From an uncultured Eggerthellaceae bacterium (GTDB lineage Bacteria; Actinomycetota; Coriobacteriia; Coriobacteriales; Eggerthellaceae): a DNA stretch of 57,954 nt. The translations under genes and the position numbers were made by a program. Where the stretch lies: assembly GCA_947564425.1 (NCBI GenBank), contig CANOBU010000003.1:1-57954 (forward strand). Direction: 5' to 3'. Numbering within the stretch: position 1 is the stretch's first letter; the number at the start of each line of letters is the position of its first letter. Shown here piece after piece: positions 6,477 through 52,545 of this stretch. The notes beneath the pieces are model-generated. The model was not told where the DNA came from. It searched no databases and worked only from the letters and a program-made list of their open reading frames with translations.

Positions 6477-6734
6477 ATGTGCCTTGCCATTCCCATGAAA
6501 GTGATCGAGCTGCAGGACGGCTCCATGGCGCGCGTGAGCGCCATGGGCGCCGAGCGCGAAGTCGCCCTCGACCTGACGCCCCAGGCGGCGGTGGGCGATT
6601 ACGTGCTGGTGCATGCGGGCTTCGCCATCGAGGTGGTCGATGAGGAATACGCCGAGGACACCCTGCGCCTGATAGGCGAGATGTCCGATATGATCGACGA
6701 CCCCCTGGTGGCCCAGGCGGCGGCCGGCCGATGA
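6477..6734 (+). CDS. hypC: Hydrogenase maturation chaperone HypC
   Basis: An 85-residue protein of the HypC/HupF family. The diagnostic start MCLAIPMKV places the essential cysteine at position 2, where it binds the iron carrying CN and CO ligands. It acts with HypD as the scaffold on which Fe(CN)2CO is assembled and then delivers it to the hydrogenase large subunit. The middle VGDYVLVHAGFAIEVVDE is also typical of the family. The start is fixed by the required MC. AAAGGA lies just upstream. Its stop codon overlaps the hypD start (ATGA), indicating translational coupling of two proteins that form a complex. Confidence 0.95.
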   Translation: MCLAIPMKVIELQDGSMARVSAMGAEREVALDLTPQAAVGDYVLVHAGFAIEVVDEEYAEDTLRLIGEMSDMIDDPLVAQAAAGR

Positions 6735-7828
6735 GCGGCGACCTCGAGGAATCCCTGGCCCGGTTCAAAGACCCGGCCCTCGCCCGCGAGCTGGTTGCGG
6801 CCATCGCCCGCTTCGCCCCGCCCGAGGGCGCCACCCTCATGGAGGTGTGCGGCACCCATACCGTGTCCATCGCCCGGGCGGGCATCCGCGACCTCATGCC
6901 CGAGGGCATCCGCTTGGCCTCGGGGCCCGGCTGCCCGGTGTGCGTCACCTCGAACCACGATATCGATACCGTCATAGCCCTGGCCCGCATCCCGGGGGTC
7001 ATCATCGCCACCTTCGGCGACATGACCCGCGTGCCGGGTTCCACCTCGAGCCTCCTGGCCGAGCAGGCCCAAGGGCGCGCGGTCCAGATAGTCTATTCGC
7101 CTTTGGACGCCCTGGAGCTTGCCCGCCAGAACCCCGACCGCCAGGTGGTGTTCGTGGGGGTGGGGTTCGAGACCACCACGCCGCTGGTGGCCCGGGCGGT
7201 GAAGCGGGCCGCCCAGATGGGCTTGGGCAACTTCACGGTGTTCGCCGCCCACAAGAACATGCCGGGGGCCCTGGAGGCCATCGTGGCCGACCCGCGCCTG
7301 AAGATAGACGCGCTCATCCTGCCGGGCCATGTGAGCACCATCATCGGGGCCGAGCCCTACCGCTTCCTGGCCGAGCGCTACGGCATACCCGGGGTTATCA
7401 CCGGGTTCGAGCCTGTGGATGTGCTGCAGGGTATCGCCATGATACTGCGCCAGTTGCACGAGGGGCGCAGCCAGATCGAGATAGCCTACGCCCGGGGTGT
7501 GATGCAGGAGGGCAACCCCTGCGCCATGGCCGCCATCGACGAGGTGTTCGAGACCTGCACCGCCCAGTGGCGGGGCCTGGGGCCCATCGAGGGCAGCGGC
7601 TACCGCCTGCGCGCGGAGTTCGCCGATTTCGATGCGGTGCGGCGGTTCCAGCCGCAAGTCGAGCCCACGGTGGAGCCCAAGGGCTGCCGCTGCGGCGACG
7701 TGCTGCGCGGGATCATGACCCCCCACGAGTGTCCTCTGTTCCGCAAGGTTTGCACCCCCGAGAATCCCATAGGCCCCTGCATGGTATCCAGCGAGGGCTC
7801 CTGCGCCGCCTACTACCGCTATTACTGA
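6731..7828 (+). CDS. hypD: Hydrogenase maturation protein HypD
   Basis: A 365-residue protein matching HypD over its full length. It shows MEVCGTHT with C40, GPGCPVC with C68 and C71, GFETTTP, and the C-terminal cysteine cluster (GCRCGDVL, HECPLFRKVC and GPC) that holds a [4Fe-4S] centre. With HypC it receives cyanide made by HypE and HypF, and assembles Fe(CN)2CO. It overlaps hypC by four bases. The following 370 bases contain no gene but a block of palindromic repeats, so the operon ends here; hypE, hypA and hypB, which usually accompany these genes, are absent. Confidence 0.96.
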   Translation: MSGDLEESLARFKDPALARELVAAIARFAPPEGATLMEVCGTHTVSIARAGIRDLMPEGIRLASGPGCPVCVTSNHDIDTVIALARIPGVIIATFGDMTRVPGSTSSLLAEQAQGRAVQIVYSPLDALELARQNPDRQVVFVGVGFETTTPLVARAVKRAAQMGLGNFTVFAAHKNMPGALEAIVADPRLKIDALILPGHVSTIIGAEPYRFLAERYGIPGVITGFEPVDVLQGIAMILRQLHEGRSQIEIAYARGVMQEGNPCAMAAIDEVFETCTAQWRGLGPIEGSGYRLRAEFADFDAVRRFQPQVEPTVEPKGCRCGDVLRGIMTPHECPLFRKVCTPENPIGPCMVSSEGSCAAYYRYY

Positions 7829-7870
7829 GGTTGTCTTCTCGGCGAATCGCCTGGGGCGCGGTGCAGATGT

Positions 7871-7927
7871 TGCATTCCGAGGGTTATCTGACATTGCTTG
7901 CCGGGAAAGGGTCCGAATGCAGGATTT
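7871..7927. repeat. Palindromic repeat unit, degenerate copy
   Basis: The outer arms TGCATTCCG (7871-7879) and CGAATGCAGG (7914-7923) face each other. The inner segment TATCTGACA at 7885-7893 matches the inner arm of the intact copies, but its partner near 7899 has decayed (TGCCGGGAA). It is followed by a second pair, GAATGCAGG (7915-7923) with CCTGCATTC (7952-7960), so units alternate in orientation. Confidence 0.6.
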
Positions 7928-7990
7928 CCGGAGGGGATAGCGCTCCAAAAACCTGCATTCGGATATCGAAGTGGCCAAGAAGGGATTCCG

Positions 7991-8051
7991 AACCCCGCAT
8001 TCGGGTCGCCATCTGACATGGAGTGCCAGATGGTAAGGCGAATGCGGGGTT
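7991..8051. repeat. Palindromic repeat unit, best copy at this locus
   Basis: This is a two-tier hairpin. The outer arms are AACCCCGCATTCG (7991-8003) and CGAATGCGGGGTT (8039-8051), a perfect 13-base match. The inner arms are CATCTGACA (8010-8018) and TGCCAGATG (8024-8032) around a five-base loop. Six-base internal bulges separate the tiers on both sides. The same plan recurs at 50732-50792. Confidence 0.8.
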
Positions 8052-8198
8052 TTATCGGCTGGCTTCTCCGCCTGCCTTCGCGGCCGCCCTGCTCCCGACG
8101 TTTTCCAAAGGGTTTCGAACAGCCATCCGCCGTTGGTTATTCTCATTTGTGGTGGTAATATGTAGAAATCTATTCCAACTTGTTGGGGGAGGTGCGAA

Positions 8199-9719
8199 AT
8201 GGAGCTCTTCACAGACGTGGCGTTTCTTGCGCGCTTGCAGTTCACGCTCACGGTGGCATTCCATTTCATTTTCGTTCCGCTATCCATAGGCGTGGGCCTC
8301 ATCACGGCCATCGCCCAGACCCGGGCCTGCCGCTCGGGCAGCCAGCAGGACGCCGATGCGGCCTGGTTCTGGGTGAAGTGCTTCACGGCCACCTTCGCCG
8401 TGGGCGTGGCCACGGGCATAACCATGGAGTTCTCCTTCGGCACCAACTGGGCCGATTACTCGCGCTTCGTGGGCGATATCTTCGGTGCGCCCCTGGCGGC
8501 CGAGGCGTTGTTCGCCTTCTTCCTGGAGTCCGTGTTCCTGGGCGTGCTGCTGTTCGGCCGCGGGAAGGTGGGGCCCAGGGCCTACACCGCCGCCGCATGG
8601 CTGGTGTGGGGTGGCTCGTGCCTCTCGGCCCTGTGGATCCTCATAGCGAATTCGTGGATGCAGACCCCCGATGGCGCTGCCCTGGCGGCCGATGGCAGCA
8701 AGGCCGTGCTCACCGACTTCTTCGCCGCCGCCTTCAATCCCTCCACCGGCAACCGCTTCTTCCATACGGTGACGGCGGCTTTGGCCCTGGGCGGCATGGT
8801 GGCCATGGCCTTCGCCGCCTATTACTACCTGAAGGGCCGCAACCTGGATTTCGCCAAGAAGACCATGGCGACCGGCGTGGCAGTGACCCTGGTGGGCGCC
8901 GTGGCCCTGTTCGGCTCGGCCCATGCCACGGCCGTGGGCGTGTGGAACGAGCAACCCACCAAGCTGGCCGCCATGGAGGGCCAGTACGAGGACGAGGTGC
9001 CCCCCTTGTACCTGTTCGGCTGGGTTGACGAGCAGAGCCAGGAGGTCCTGGGCCCGGGCATCCCCGGCTTCACCAGCCTTCTGGCCACCGGCACCCTGGA
9101 TACCGAGTACCCGGGCCTGAACACCCTGGCGCAGACCGAGCAATATGGCGCCTTGGACCCGGCGCAGATGCCGGTGAACGCGATCTTCCAAACCTATCAT
9201 TTCATGGTGGCCTTCAGCGGCGTCATACTGTTGCTGGTGGCCTTGGCCCTGATCGCCGTGGCCACGAAGCGCATGCAGCGCTGGAAGTGGCTGCAATGGG
9301 TGCTGTTCATAGCGCCGGCAGTGGCCCTGATCGCCATCGAGGCCGGCTGGTTCACCGCCGAGCTGGGGCGCCAGCCCTGGGTAGTGTACCCCTCGGCCAC
9401 GGGCCCCGAAGGGGTTGAGCTGCTCACCGACACCGCCTATTCCCATTCGGTGTCGGCACCGGAGCTGCTGCTTACCATCGTGCTGTTCTGCGCCATCTAC
9501 CTGCTGCTGTTCGTGGCGTGGATCCGCATCATCTCGAAGTTCGTGAAGAGCGGCCCCCAACCGGCTCCCGCTATCGCCGGGGCTGCCGAAGGGGCCGGCA
9601 TCCCGGAAGACGGCCTGGTGCTCACGGAGGTTGAAGAGGTCGACATAGAGGCGCCGGAGGCGCGGCAGCCGGGTTCCGGCAGCCGGCCCTCCGCTTCTGC
9701 GATGAAGGCGGGTGAATAG
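8199..9719 (+). CDS. cydA: Cytochrome bd quinol oxidase subunit I
   Basis: A 506-residue polytopic membrane protein of the CydA family, which oxidises quinol and reduces O2 to water at high affinity while adding to the proton gradient. It begins MELFTDVAFLARLQFTLTVAFHFIFVP; His22 matches the conserved N-terminal haem ligand. It also contains the GRQPW signature and a short Q loop, as in many Gram-positive and anaerobic bacteria. About nine hydrophobic segments are visible. The last 50 residues are a hydrophilic, acidic/proline tail that looks dispensable. GGGGGAGG precedes the start. cydB follows immediately; cydC and cydD are not in the window. In an anaerobe it probably removes traces of oxygen. 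Confidence 0.95.
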   Translation: MELFTDVAFLARLQFTLTVAFHFIFVPLSIGVGLITAIAQTRACRSGSQQDADAAWFWVKCFTATFAVGVATGITMEFSFGTNWADYSRFVGDIFGAPLAAEALFAFFLESVFLGVLLFGRGKVGPRAYTAAAWLVWGGSCLSALWILIANSWMQTPDGAALAADGSKAVLTDFFAAAFNPSTGNRFFHTVTAALALGGMVAMAFAAYYYLKGRNLDFAKKTMATGVAVTLVGAVALFGSAHATAVGVWNEQPTKLAAMEGQYEDEVPPLYLFGWVDEQSQEVLGPGIPGFTSLLATGTLDTEYPGLNTLAQTEQYGALDPAQMPVNAIFQTYHFMVAFSGVILLLVALALIAVATKRMQRWKWLQWVLFIAPAVALIAIEAGWFTAELGRQPWVVYPSATGPEGVELLTDTAYSHSVSAPELLLTIVLFCAIYLLLFVAWIRIISKFVKSGPQPAPAIAGAAEGAGIPEDGLVLTEVEEVDIEAPEARQPGSGSRPSASAMKAGE

Positions 9720-26332: not shown

Positions 26333-26362
26333 GGAAAAGGCCCGGGAAACCGGGCCTTTTCC
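26333..26362 (+). terminator. Strong intrinsic terminator after hyaC
   Basis: GGAAAAGGCCCGG (26333-26345) pairs perfectly with CCGGGCCTTTTCC (26350-26362) around GAAA. The 13-base stem with four U residues inside its descending arm is one of the strongest hairpins in the window. Confidence 0.85.
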
Positions 26363-30043: not shown

Positions 30044-30067
30044 GAAGCGGGGGTTCGCCCCCGCTTC
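30044..30067 (+). terminator. Intrinsic terminator after the radical SAM gene
   Basis: GAAGCGGGGG (30044-30053) pairs with CCCCCGCTTC (30058-30067) around TTCG, followed by TTTTCT. A ten-base perfect stem and U-tract make termination likely. Confidence 0.85.
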
Positions 30068-49971: not shown

Positions 49972-50430
49972 ATGGCTGAGAGCTACCGCTGCGTGGTCGC
50001 CACCCCCACCCGCGAGCTGTTCGCGGGGGATGTCTACTACGCCAACGTGCCGGGCTACGATGGCCACTACGGCGTGCTGAAGGGCCACGAGAGCCTGGTG
50101 GCCACCAACCACCAGGGCGGCAAGCTGGTGCTGTGGCTCGACGAGGAGGGCAAGGAGACCAAGACCTTCCTTTTGCACATGGGCTGCACCCAGATGCTCC
50201 ATGACCATCTTGCGGTCCTGGGCCGTTTCGGCTGCGATGCCGATGCCATCGACGTGGATGAGGTGCGCGGGAAGGCCGAGAAGCTTTCCGCCCGCATCGA
50301 CGAGATGAAGGTCGAGGCCGAGGACAACGATGCCGTGAAAGCGGAGATCGATGCCGAGGAGATTCACCTCAGCTGGTACAAGGCGCAGATCGAATACGCC
50401 ACCACCGGCAAAGAGAGCTACAAGCAGTAA
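49972..50430 (+). CDS. atpC: ATP synthase F1 subunit epsilon
   Basis: A 152-residue epsilon subunit, slightly longer than usual (about 130-140). The N-terminal beta-sandwich shows RCVVATPTRELFAGDVYYANVPGYDGHYGVLKGHESLVA; the C-terminal helices (ARIDEMKVEAEDNDAVKAEIDAEE) form the inhibitory part that limits ATP hydrolysis. The ATG lies two bases after the atpD stop. An intrinsic terminator follows, closing the operon. Confidence 0.93.
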   Translation: MAESYRCVVATPTRELFAGDVYYANVPGYDGHYGVLKGHESLVATNHQGGKLVLWLDEEGKETKTFLLHMGCTQMLHDHLAVLGRFGCDADAIDVDEVRGKAEKLSARIDEMKVEAEDNDAVKAEIDAEEIHLSWYKAQIEYATTGKESYKQ

Positions 50431-50476: not shown

Positions 50477-50508
50477 GGAAAGGCCGCCCCTCCGCGGGCG
50501 GCCTTTCC
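50477..50508 (+). terminator. Intrinsic terminator of the atp operon
   Basis: GGAAAGGCCGCCC (50477-50489) pairs with GGGCGGCCTTTCC (50496-50508) around CTCCGC, followed by GTTTCC. A 13-base perfect stem. Confidence 0.8.
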
Positions 50509-50766
50509 GTTTCCCCATTCCCAGGGTATTTCGTTCACCACCTCTCCCGGTTCCTTTCGCTCTTCGGGAGAAGGCTTCCCGCTATCCTTTCTCGCTATCT
50601 GGGGAGAATGTCGCATTCGTGCCCTTAAATGGCAGCTGCCGTCAGATAACCATTCACGTGCGGGGTTCTTCCCCCCGAATCGCCGCTTAAAAGCCGCATT
50701 CGGTGCGCCAACTGGCAAAGGAGGTGTATTGAACCTCGCATTTCGCCCTCCATCTGGCATACGCTG
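50509..50766. other. Intergenic region with palindromic repeats
   Basis: No convincing gene lies here. It contains degenerate copies of the palindromic repeat (50612-50670 and a half copy near 50695-50735) before the intact copy at 50732-50792. Open frames across it only read the repeats. Confidence 0.55.
50612..50670. repeat. Palindromic repeat unit, degenerate copy
   Basis: CGCATTCGTG near 50612 faces CACGTGCGGGG near 50656, with TTAAATGGCA and TCAGATAA as the inner arms around GCTGCCG. The end is followed by TTCTTCC as in the other locus. Confidence 0.5.
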
Positions 50767-50792
50767 TCAGATGAGCCTTCGAATGCGGGATT
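50732..50792. repeat. Palindromic repeat unit, best copy at this locus
   Basis: Outer arms AACCTCGCATTTCG (50732-50745) and CGAATGCGGGATT (50780-50792). Inner arms CATCTGGCA (50751-50759) and TGTCAGATG (50765-50773) with a five-base loop. Arm lengths, bulges and loop size equal those of the copy at 7991-8051. Its right part forms the last codons of the membrane-protein gene on the minus strand. Confidence 0.8.
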
Positions 50793-52545
50793 TCCCTTCC
50801 GTCCCTCTGAGGATCCAGGGGAGGAAGAGCACCGGGATCGCGGCCATCGCCGAGGGCATGCAGTAGCGGGCAAGCACCATGGGCCCCACCACGATGGAGA
50901 GGAAGAGCAGGAAGAAGGGGGCCAACGCAATCAGGAAGGCGCTCTTCTGCCGCGGATGCCATCGGCTCAGGCAGAAGCAGAACATGAAGAACGGCAGCAG
51001 GAACACCATGAAACTCGGCGAGTTGATGAAACGCAGGGGGGTGTAGTTGAGCGCCGTCTCGTATCTATGCAGCAAGGTGCGGGCCGGCGCCATGGCACCG
51101 AATGCCGCGATGCCTTCCCGGGTCGTCTCGATCCGCTCCCGCACTGCGACTTCGGGCAGCCCGTCTTGCGTATACCCCGAGAACACGGTCACGTTGTCAT
51201 CGACCCATGCCTGATTGATATTCTCGTTCAGCGTGAAGGGTTTGAAAGGCAGGAACAGCTGCATGTTGGTGCCCATGGTGGCCGTGGAATAGGCAAGGGG
51301 GTGCTGCAGCCCCATCGAGGCCCATGTGCCCAGATATGCCAGCAAGCCCGCTGAATCGGGATACCGGTAGTTGTCTTTGATGGGGTCGGCGGTGGTCAGG
51401 TCGTACAGCGCGGGGATGGCTTCGTAGGGGAGCACGCCTTCGATGGATTCACGGGCCTCGTCGCCGATCGGGGGGAGGGAGCCCTCGGATTCGAGCAGCA
51501 CGCACCGGGCGGTCTGCTGAAGGGGGCACGAGAACAGCTCTTTCGAGGGGCCGGCGGAAACGCCCCAGGCAGGCAGGACGGCCATGGCCCAGATGCCATA
51601 GACCGCCAACGGCGCGATGAGCGAGGCGAGCCAGTACGGCCTCGCAGCCTTGCCTGCGTATACCGCCATGAGGATAAGCGTTGCGTCGACGATGATAGGT
51701 GCGGTTTTACGCGTAAGCAGAAGGAAGGTGACGACCAATAGGAACGAGATGAGCCAGGCGGGCCTGCGCAGGACCTGCCCCCGGGTGCGCAGTCCCTCGA
51801 CGAGGATGACCAGGAAGGGGATCCAACCCAGGCAGAACAGCGAGTCCTTGCACATGTTCGATGCGGTATAGGGGAAGAACGGGACGAGGCACAGGATGGC
51901 GAGGCAGATGTTCGGGAGGGTCTTCGGCGGGTCGAAGGACCTGATGTAGGTGAGCACGAAGGCCATCTCTCCCGCCATGATGGTTGTCTGGAGGAGGGAA
52001 TAGGCGGCCAGGGAGACCGACTGGGACCCGAGGGCGGCACCCAGATCGAAGGTGGACCCGAATATCATCGTGGTGAGCCAGGGATGGTGGTCGTACCAGA
52101 TCCGGGGATTGCGCCATATGAGGACCTGCCAAACGGTATCCGAGTCCAACGCGCCCGGAAGATGCGGCGCGACCCAGACCATCCATGCGCAGAGGATGAT
52201 CAGGAAGTACTTCGGGAAGCAGCGCCTGACGAGGGGCTTCAGGGGGGTGCGGCCTCCCGGCTCGCCCGCCGTGCATGGGGAGGTCAGCCGGCCCATGGCC
52301 CGGAAGGCAACTCGCGCAAGCAGGTACAGGCCCAGAAAGACCAGGATGCCCGCCAGGGTAAGAGGGACTACGAGGACGCCTGTTATCCAATCGAATTCGT
52401 GGCCTTTGGGCAGCTCCAGCAGGGCATAGCCCACATAGATCAAGCAGGCATACAGGCAAAGGAGCGTCGTCAGAAGGGCGAACAGGAGGCATCCGGCATC
52501 CACCCTGCCCTTCGAAAGAAGGGGGCGCTCGGATGCGTGTTCCAT
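50767..52545 (-). CDS. Large polytopic membrane protein, DUF6020-like
   Basis: A 592-residue protein with about 12 hydrophobic segments. The N-terminal part has LIYVGYALLELPKGHEFDW and the central region has WVAPHLPGALDSDTVWQVL and YDHHPWLTTMIFG, resembling the DUF6020 group of bacterial membrane proteins seen in actinobacteria, which recall lipid-linked-sugar glycosyltransferases (a luminal Asp after helix 1-2). A large extracytoplasmic part between helices (about residues 325-500) is visible. No function is proven. Its C-terminal GKSRIRRLI is encoded by the palindromic repeat at 50732-50792, so the true original end may differ. It is a single gene between the repeat and rnpB. Confidence 0.65.
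   Translation of the reverse strand: MEHASERPLLSKGRVDAGCLLFALLTTLLCLYACLIYVGYALLELPKGHEFDWITGVLVVPLTLAGILVFLGLYLLARVAFRAMGRLTSPCTAGEPGGRTPLKPLVRRCFPKYFLIILCAWMVWVAPHLPGALDSDTVWQVLIWRNPRIWYDHHPWLTTMIFGSTFDLGAALGSQSVSLAAYSLLQTTIMAGEMAFVLTYIRSFDPPKTLPNICLAILCLVPFFPYTASNMCKDSLFCLGWIPFLVILVEGLRTRGQVLRRPAWLISFLLVVTFLLLTRKTAPIIVDATLILMAVYAGKAARPYWLASLIAPLAVYGIWAMAVLPAWGVSAGPSKELFSCPLQQTARCVLLESEGSLPPIGDEARESIEGVLPYEAIPALYDLTTADPIKDNYRYPDSAGLLAYLGTWASMGLQHPLAYSTATMGTNMQLFLPFKPFTLNENINQAWVDDNVTVFSGYTQDGLPEVAVRERIETTREGIAAFGAMAPARTLLHRYETALNYTPLRFINSPSFMVFLLPFFMFCFCLSRWHPRQKSAFLIALAPFFLLFLSIVVGPMVLARYCMPSAMAAIPVLFLPWILRGTEGKSRIRRLI

Follow-up and report, generated by a model that had tools for sequence, protein, structure and literature searches.

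The window analysed here is a stretch of 57,954 nucleotides, contig C3 of a draft genome from an uncultured Eggerthellaceae bacterium (G000; 1.67 Mb, 116 contigs, 86% complete). Between its hypD and cydA genes lies an array of palindromes whose arms carry GCATTCG/CGAATGC (Table 1). An earlier note on this DNA had counted at least three related units in this gap. The place is correct, and the units are a degenerate palindrome (P1), a half-palindrome and a well-formed palindrome (P2), which together make up a 188-bp composite that the note overlooked. The best copy (7991–8051) does have perfect 13-bp outer arms (AACCCCGCATTCG/CGAATGCGGGGTT) and a 5-base loop as described there, but its 9-base inner arms (CATCTGACA/TGCCAGATG) contain one mismatch on the + strand, which becomes a G·U pair in RNA of the − strand. 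Folded as RNA and compared with shuffled sequences, P2 gave z = −7.1 (+ strand) and −8.4 (− strand). The pattern GCATTCGn15-45CGAATGC occurred once in the window against 0.02 occurrences expected.

A second composite lies between atpC and a DUF6020 gene. Its P2 is the copy that the earlier note had placed about 42 kb away; the geometry is indeed equal, but the outer arms are imperfect. The short hairpin ahead of this composite is likely the terminator of atpC. Together with the hairpins at 26333–26362 and 30044–30067, it belongs to the short, perfect, intrinsic-terminator type, which is unlike the two-tier palindromes.

Table 1 Genes, palindromes and composites at the loci described (window positions unless another contig is named).
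Feature	Position	Strand	Remark
hypD	6731–7828	+	Upstream gene; Pfam HypD, E 2e-149; 3' end precedes array
First composite (P1 + half-palindrome + P2), 188 bp	7865–8052	+	Indel-free layout common to four loci
P1, degenerate 63-bp palindrome	7865–7927	+	R1 26 bits, E 7e-5 in window
Alternative hairpin, P1 right arm + middle half-arm	7912–7963		12 bp perfect
Middle half-arm AAAACCTGCATTCG	7948–7961	+	Composite position 84
P2	7990–8052	+	Best copy; arms given in text
cydA	8199–9719	+	Downstream gene; Pfam Cyt_bd_oxida_I, E 2e-136; start 146 bp past element
atpC	49972–50430	+	Upstream of second composite; Pfam ATP-synt_DE_N
Perfect 13-bp hairpin	50477–50508		Separate from composite; likely terminator
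Second composite	50606–50793	+	Same layout, no indels
P1 of second composite	50606–50668	+	R1 54 bits, found on − strand
Middle half-arm AAAAGCCGCATTCG	50689–50702	+	Composite position 84
P2 of second composite	50731–50793	+	R1 70 bits
DUF6020 gene	50767–52545	−	Convergent with atpC; last codons and stop inside P2
Composite on C8	22768–22955		Same indel-free layout
Composite on C59	3909–4096		Same indel-free layout

A palindrome family with rigid geometry in the source genome

A covariance model built from the copies found 10 palindromes at six intergenic loci in the G000 draft (C3 has two loci, C8 and C59 have one each, and C17 and C4 hold single palindromes), with the 63-bp two-tier consensus GAACCCCGCATTCGn6CATCTGGCAn5TGCCAGATGn6CGAATGCGGGGTTC. 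The strict inner core ATCTGRCAn5TGYCAGAT occurred six times in this genome and in none of 40 relatives. The earlier note had held that two local hairpins might merely coincide if the genome contained no further copies. Lone GCATTCG words in the window are indeed no more frequent than chance, but BLAST with the P2 region as the sole query reached the copies on C8 (E 2e-10) and C59 (E 3e-5), a backward control of the palindrome search gave zero matches, and the spacing is exact at four loci, which leaves coincidence with almost no probability. The palindromes are a real repeat family, with one layout at four places and a longer relative in one sister species.

The four composites align over 188 bp without an indel. 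The start-to-start distance from P1 to P2 is 125 bp in all four, and a fifth arm, a half-palindrome of the AAAnCCnGCATTCG type, always stands at composite position 84; the repeat unit is therefore the 188-bp composite rather than the single palindrome. Its ends are GAACCCCGC-type arms in inverted orientation, which are degenerate in P1 of the two window composites (C3a and C3b). Among the nine copies compared, the outer (AACCCCGCATTCG) and inner (CATCTGGCA) arms share a mean identity of 77–78%, against 32% for the bases between the tiers, 29% for the loop, 27% for the remaining spacer and 29% for the flanks (chance, 25%). With the arms conserved, the rest close to chance and no indel, the sequence between the arms has turned over while its length was kept. 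The five arm centres fall at composite positions 11, 53, 94, 136 and 178, at spacings of 42, 41, 42 and 42 bp, that is, about four helical turns.

As for pairing, the covariation score of the G000 copies was reached in 35 of 500 shuffles, a borderline value for nine related sequences. Most copies fold very stably (z down to −8.9), and two P1 copies are not clearly beyond shuffles. An Rfam scan of five loci matched nothing but a neighbouring tRNA, and a structured RNA was rejected. An integron attC site, considered for its two-box geometry, was set aside, as the R-box consensus does not seem to fit.

Placement after genes and at syntenic sites

The neighbours of the six loci are hypD>cydA, atpC><DUF6020, mrp-like>amidohydrolase, methyltransferase><unknown, membrane protein><nitroreductase and FtsX><metA. 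All six lie after the 3' end of a gene, as the earlier note had considered, four between convergent and two between tandem genes and none between divergent ones; the convergent excess (P 0.04 under a one-quarter expectation) gives weak support to a preference for such gaps. This placement, along with the stable folding of most copies, would suit terminators or stabilisers of mRNA 3' ends, in which the GC-rich hairpin ending in GGGGTTTT halts transcription or holds up 3' exonucleases. Against this, a terminator scan of 7400–8400 returned no terminator-like site, the T tails are short and differ between copies, and atpC already has a short hairpin of its own upstream of the array. The folding of two P1 copies is not clearly beyond shuffles, and the doublet with its exact 125-bp spacing would be left unexplained. 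An ordinary intrinsic terminator is thus disfavoured, and we consider the wider 3'-end role unlikely.

The genes flanking the six loci are functionally unrelated, which argues against a regulon. The hypD-cydA synteny is kept in five congeners, none of which carries the element in the gap (about 60 bp in G013); this comparison concerns the presence or absence of the element in the gap. Homologous loci lacking the arms, which the earlier note would have taken as a sign of coincidence, do therefore occur, but they fit the insertion of a dispersed repeat better.

Other elements were seen at the same site in congeners. Unrelated palindromic repeats of the GTAGGGGCGC type follow hypD directly in G007 (L126) and G008 (L135), and a different one, ACTACCCCACTTACTGCCAGACCC, lies just 3' of hypD in G001 (L128), which suggests that this gap often collects palindromic repeats. 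In G003 (L125), hypD and cydA are separated by an insert of about 1 kb that, by eye, reads like a toxin-antitoxin type pair (DUF1778-like protein and acetyltransferase).

A longer relative of the family in a sister species

When the congeners were searched with the model, G013 matched more weakly (best E 3e-4), G001 had a single marginal match (E 0.026) and the other 12 had none at E 0.1. In G013, a longer palindrome (AAACCCCGCATTTCGCACACACAACTGGAATATRCGTGCA..) is present at about 16 loci, and nearly all of these are doublets with a spacing of exactly 103 bp, apart from one of 104 bp. All 14 of the loci examined are outside genes predicted by a composition heuristic. Common to both families are an outer arm AAACCCCGCATT(T)CG, an inner CA(A/T)CTGG and an exact doublet spacing. 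They differ in that the G013 palindromes are 94–116 bp long with the 103-bp spacing, mostly end in AAGTTA/TAACTT with a TAACTT box in mid-element, and are more numerous and more similar to one another; their arm spacings (47, 56 and 47) are unphased. Pairing or covariation in G013 was no greater than in column shuffles.

Among 138 genomes of the bacterial family, only G000 (3) and G013 (6) show a clear enrichment of AAACCCCGCATT, the others having 0 to 2. Searches beyond the bacterial family used exact patterns. Plasmids, phages and viral contigs contained no match to either repeat family, and a phage or plasmid source was rejected. The inner core was found in 25 scattered records of genome_contigs, each with a single palindrome and with no cluster in one lineage, which is consistent with chance rather than with a wider spread. 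A literature search returned nothing relevant on palindromic repeats in this bacterial class.

Elsewhere in the bacterial family, palindromes of the form CCCCGCAT..ATGCGGGG matched the model weakly (E 0.04 or above) and were dismissed; by eye, several resemble coding regions or regions of plasmid mobilisation. One 75-bp palindrome present in two congeners (L088 1501–1575 in G005; L089 610–684 in G004) lies beside what appears by eye to be a small plasmid-mobilisation-like gene and is possibly a candidate oriT region.

Relation to REP elements and Y1 transposases

The earlier note had likened the array to REP/BIME elements and had named RAYT transposases as enzymes that can move such repeats. 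The likeness holds as far as a multi-copy, intergenic palindrome family in BIME-like clusters is concerned, and G000 does encode a Y1_Tnp protein of 277 aa with HUH and catalytic Tyr motifs (C41:2891-3767, L029). However, the sole Y1_Tnp gene found in the draft is bounded by 23-bp inverted repeats, GCAGGACGGGGATAATGTCATCA, whose similarity to the palindrome is not beyond shuffles, and a RAYT origin was rejected on this ground. Across the genus, none of the Y1_Tnp genes with readable flanking inverted repeats has the palindrome arms (GAACCCCGCATTCG). A parent transposase would share the ends GAACCCCGCATTCG or AAGTTAGCC..AAACCCCGCATTTCG; in this comparison, which covered Y1_Tnp genes only, their flanks gave no match to the element ends. 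Nor was a RAYT gene between two inverted palindrome copies found in the 86%-complete G000, where such a gene could be missing.

REP elements bear a GTAG or CGTC tag and are linked to RAYT genes that have the repeat on both sides (PMC2817692, PMC3733652); a genome usually holds more than 100 REP copies (PMC2817692). Here, neither GTAG (GT(A/G)G) nor CGTC lies within 10 nt of either end in eight of nine copies, the exception being a lone GTGG at C17, and 10 copies at six loci are well below the usual REP number. A REPIN is an inverted doublet of set length that shows compensatory changes. REPINs keep their ends and length while the spacer letters vary (PMC3116915); a fixed doublet length is likewise found here, whereas covariation is absent in G013 and borderline in G000. 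The absent tag, the few copies and the rigid 188-bp composite all speak against REP membership, and mobilisation by a RAYT is very unlikely.

The C41 gene is a tyrosine transposase of the TIR-associated kind and has a small family of repeats of its own. Near-identical solo copies of the GCAGGACGGGGATAATGTCATCA-type TIR occur at C41:7287 and C52:4735, and these copies, together with TIRs unrelated to the palindromes, match the TIRYT class (PMC3733652).

Discussion

We propose, with a probability of roughly 0.5, that the array is a lineage-specific, non-coding, non-autonomous MITE/ERIC-like intergenic element with arms read by a putative transposase. A sequence-specific protein, most probably a trans-acting transposase, would recognise the arms as duplex DNA at a fixed spacing and would have let this non-autonomous, MITE-like unit spread to gaps that follow genes. 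There, the hairpins may protect transcripts or end them as a side effect. Since covariation is absent in G013 and borderline in G000, the arms seem to be kept as sequence read in the duplex more than as a hairpin. Rigid spacing and a dispersed, lineage-limited, intergenic placement are what is expected of a non-autonomous unit recognised by a transposase. Ten palindromes at six loci, the 125-bp distance and position-84 half-palindrome in four of four composites and the G013 doublets all support a mobile unit, and the element is, like MITEs, short, non-coding, intergenic and dispersed, with terminal inverted repeats, and is absent at the homologous site in relatives. Counting against mobility, the G000 copies have diverged too far outside the arms for a recent move to be seen. 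No transposase or autonomous copy with the palindrome arms was found among the Y1_Tnp genes examined in the 86%-complete draft, and the four composites, which are all that this draft offers, showed no consistent flanking direct repeat as a target-site duplication; the copies may be too old for one.

Fixed spacing over random sequence could equally mean selection at each site. The arrays would then be binding sites for a nucleoid-associated or regulatory protein, with five phased arms on one DNA face and each array selected in place, and the regular arm centres, the conserved arms in otherwise random, indel-free sequence and the keeping of sequence rather than pairing agree with this. As a phased array under local selection would yield the same conservation pattern, we keep this as the main rival, possible but on the whole rather unlikely: the related G013 family is unphased, which weighs somewhat against it, the element is absent from the syntenic hypD-cydA gaps and was not found in other congeners, and the flanking genes share no theme. 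A further and more novel reading, in which one host protein binds GCATTCG arms four turns apart in a helically phased, five-arm nucleoprotein site, is unlikely. Were it true, dispersed 188-bp arrays would mark a new lineage-specific chromosome-organising or transposition complex, and the sister species would have reset the recognition sequence and spacing (103 bp, new inner arms) while keeping the outer arm.

This is a small palindromic repeat family with no RAYT or REP link found, in which the geometry is exact and the other sequence is randomised. Its relative in the sister species changed the inner motif and the spacing together. The G000/G013 pair thus offers a compact comparison, made by nature, in which to look for the recognising protein, and lets one ask whether such repeats persist via mobility or local function.

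Compared with known systems, the family resembles REP, BIME and REPIN elements (PMC2817692, PMC3116915) in its intergenic palindromes, set-length doublets and poorly conserved spacer and in the presence of a Y1 transposase in the genome, but differs in its 63-bp two-tier units within a 188-bp composite, its few copies, the lack of a GT(A/G)G head and of clear compensatory changes, and the unrelated TIRs of the Y1 transposase found. The TIR families of TIRYTs (PMC3733652) have a counterpart in G000 in the Y1 gene with its TIRs and two solo TIR copies; those TIRs are, however, a separate repeat, unlike the palindromes. ERIC/IRU and other MITE-like small repeats are about 100–200 bp long, non-coding, palindromic, intergenic and lineage-limited (PMC2229807), and the present element is like them in all these respects, while it differs in having two palindromes and a half at fixed spacing and no target-site duplication seen. 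Without claiming membership of any named family, we regard the ERIC/MITE-like small repeat as the closest general kind by size, palindromy and placement.
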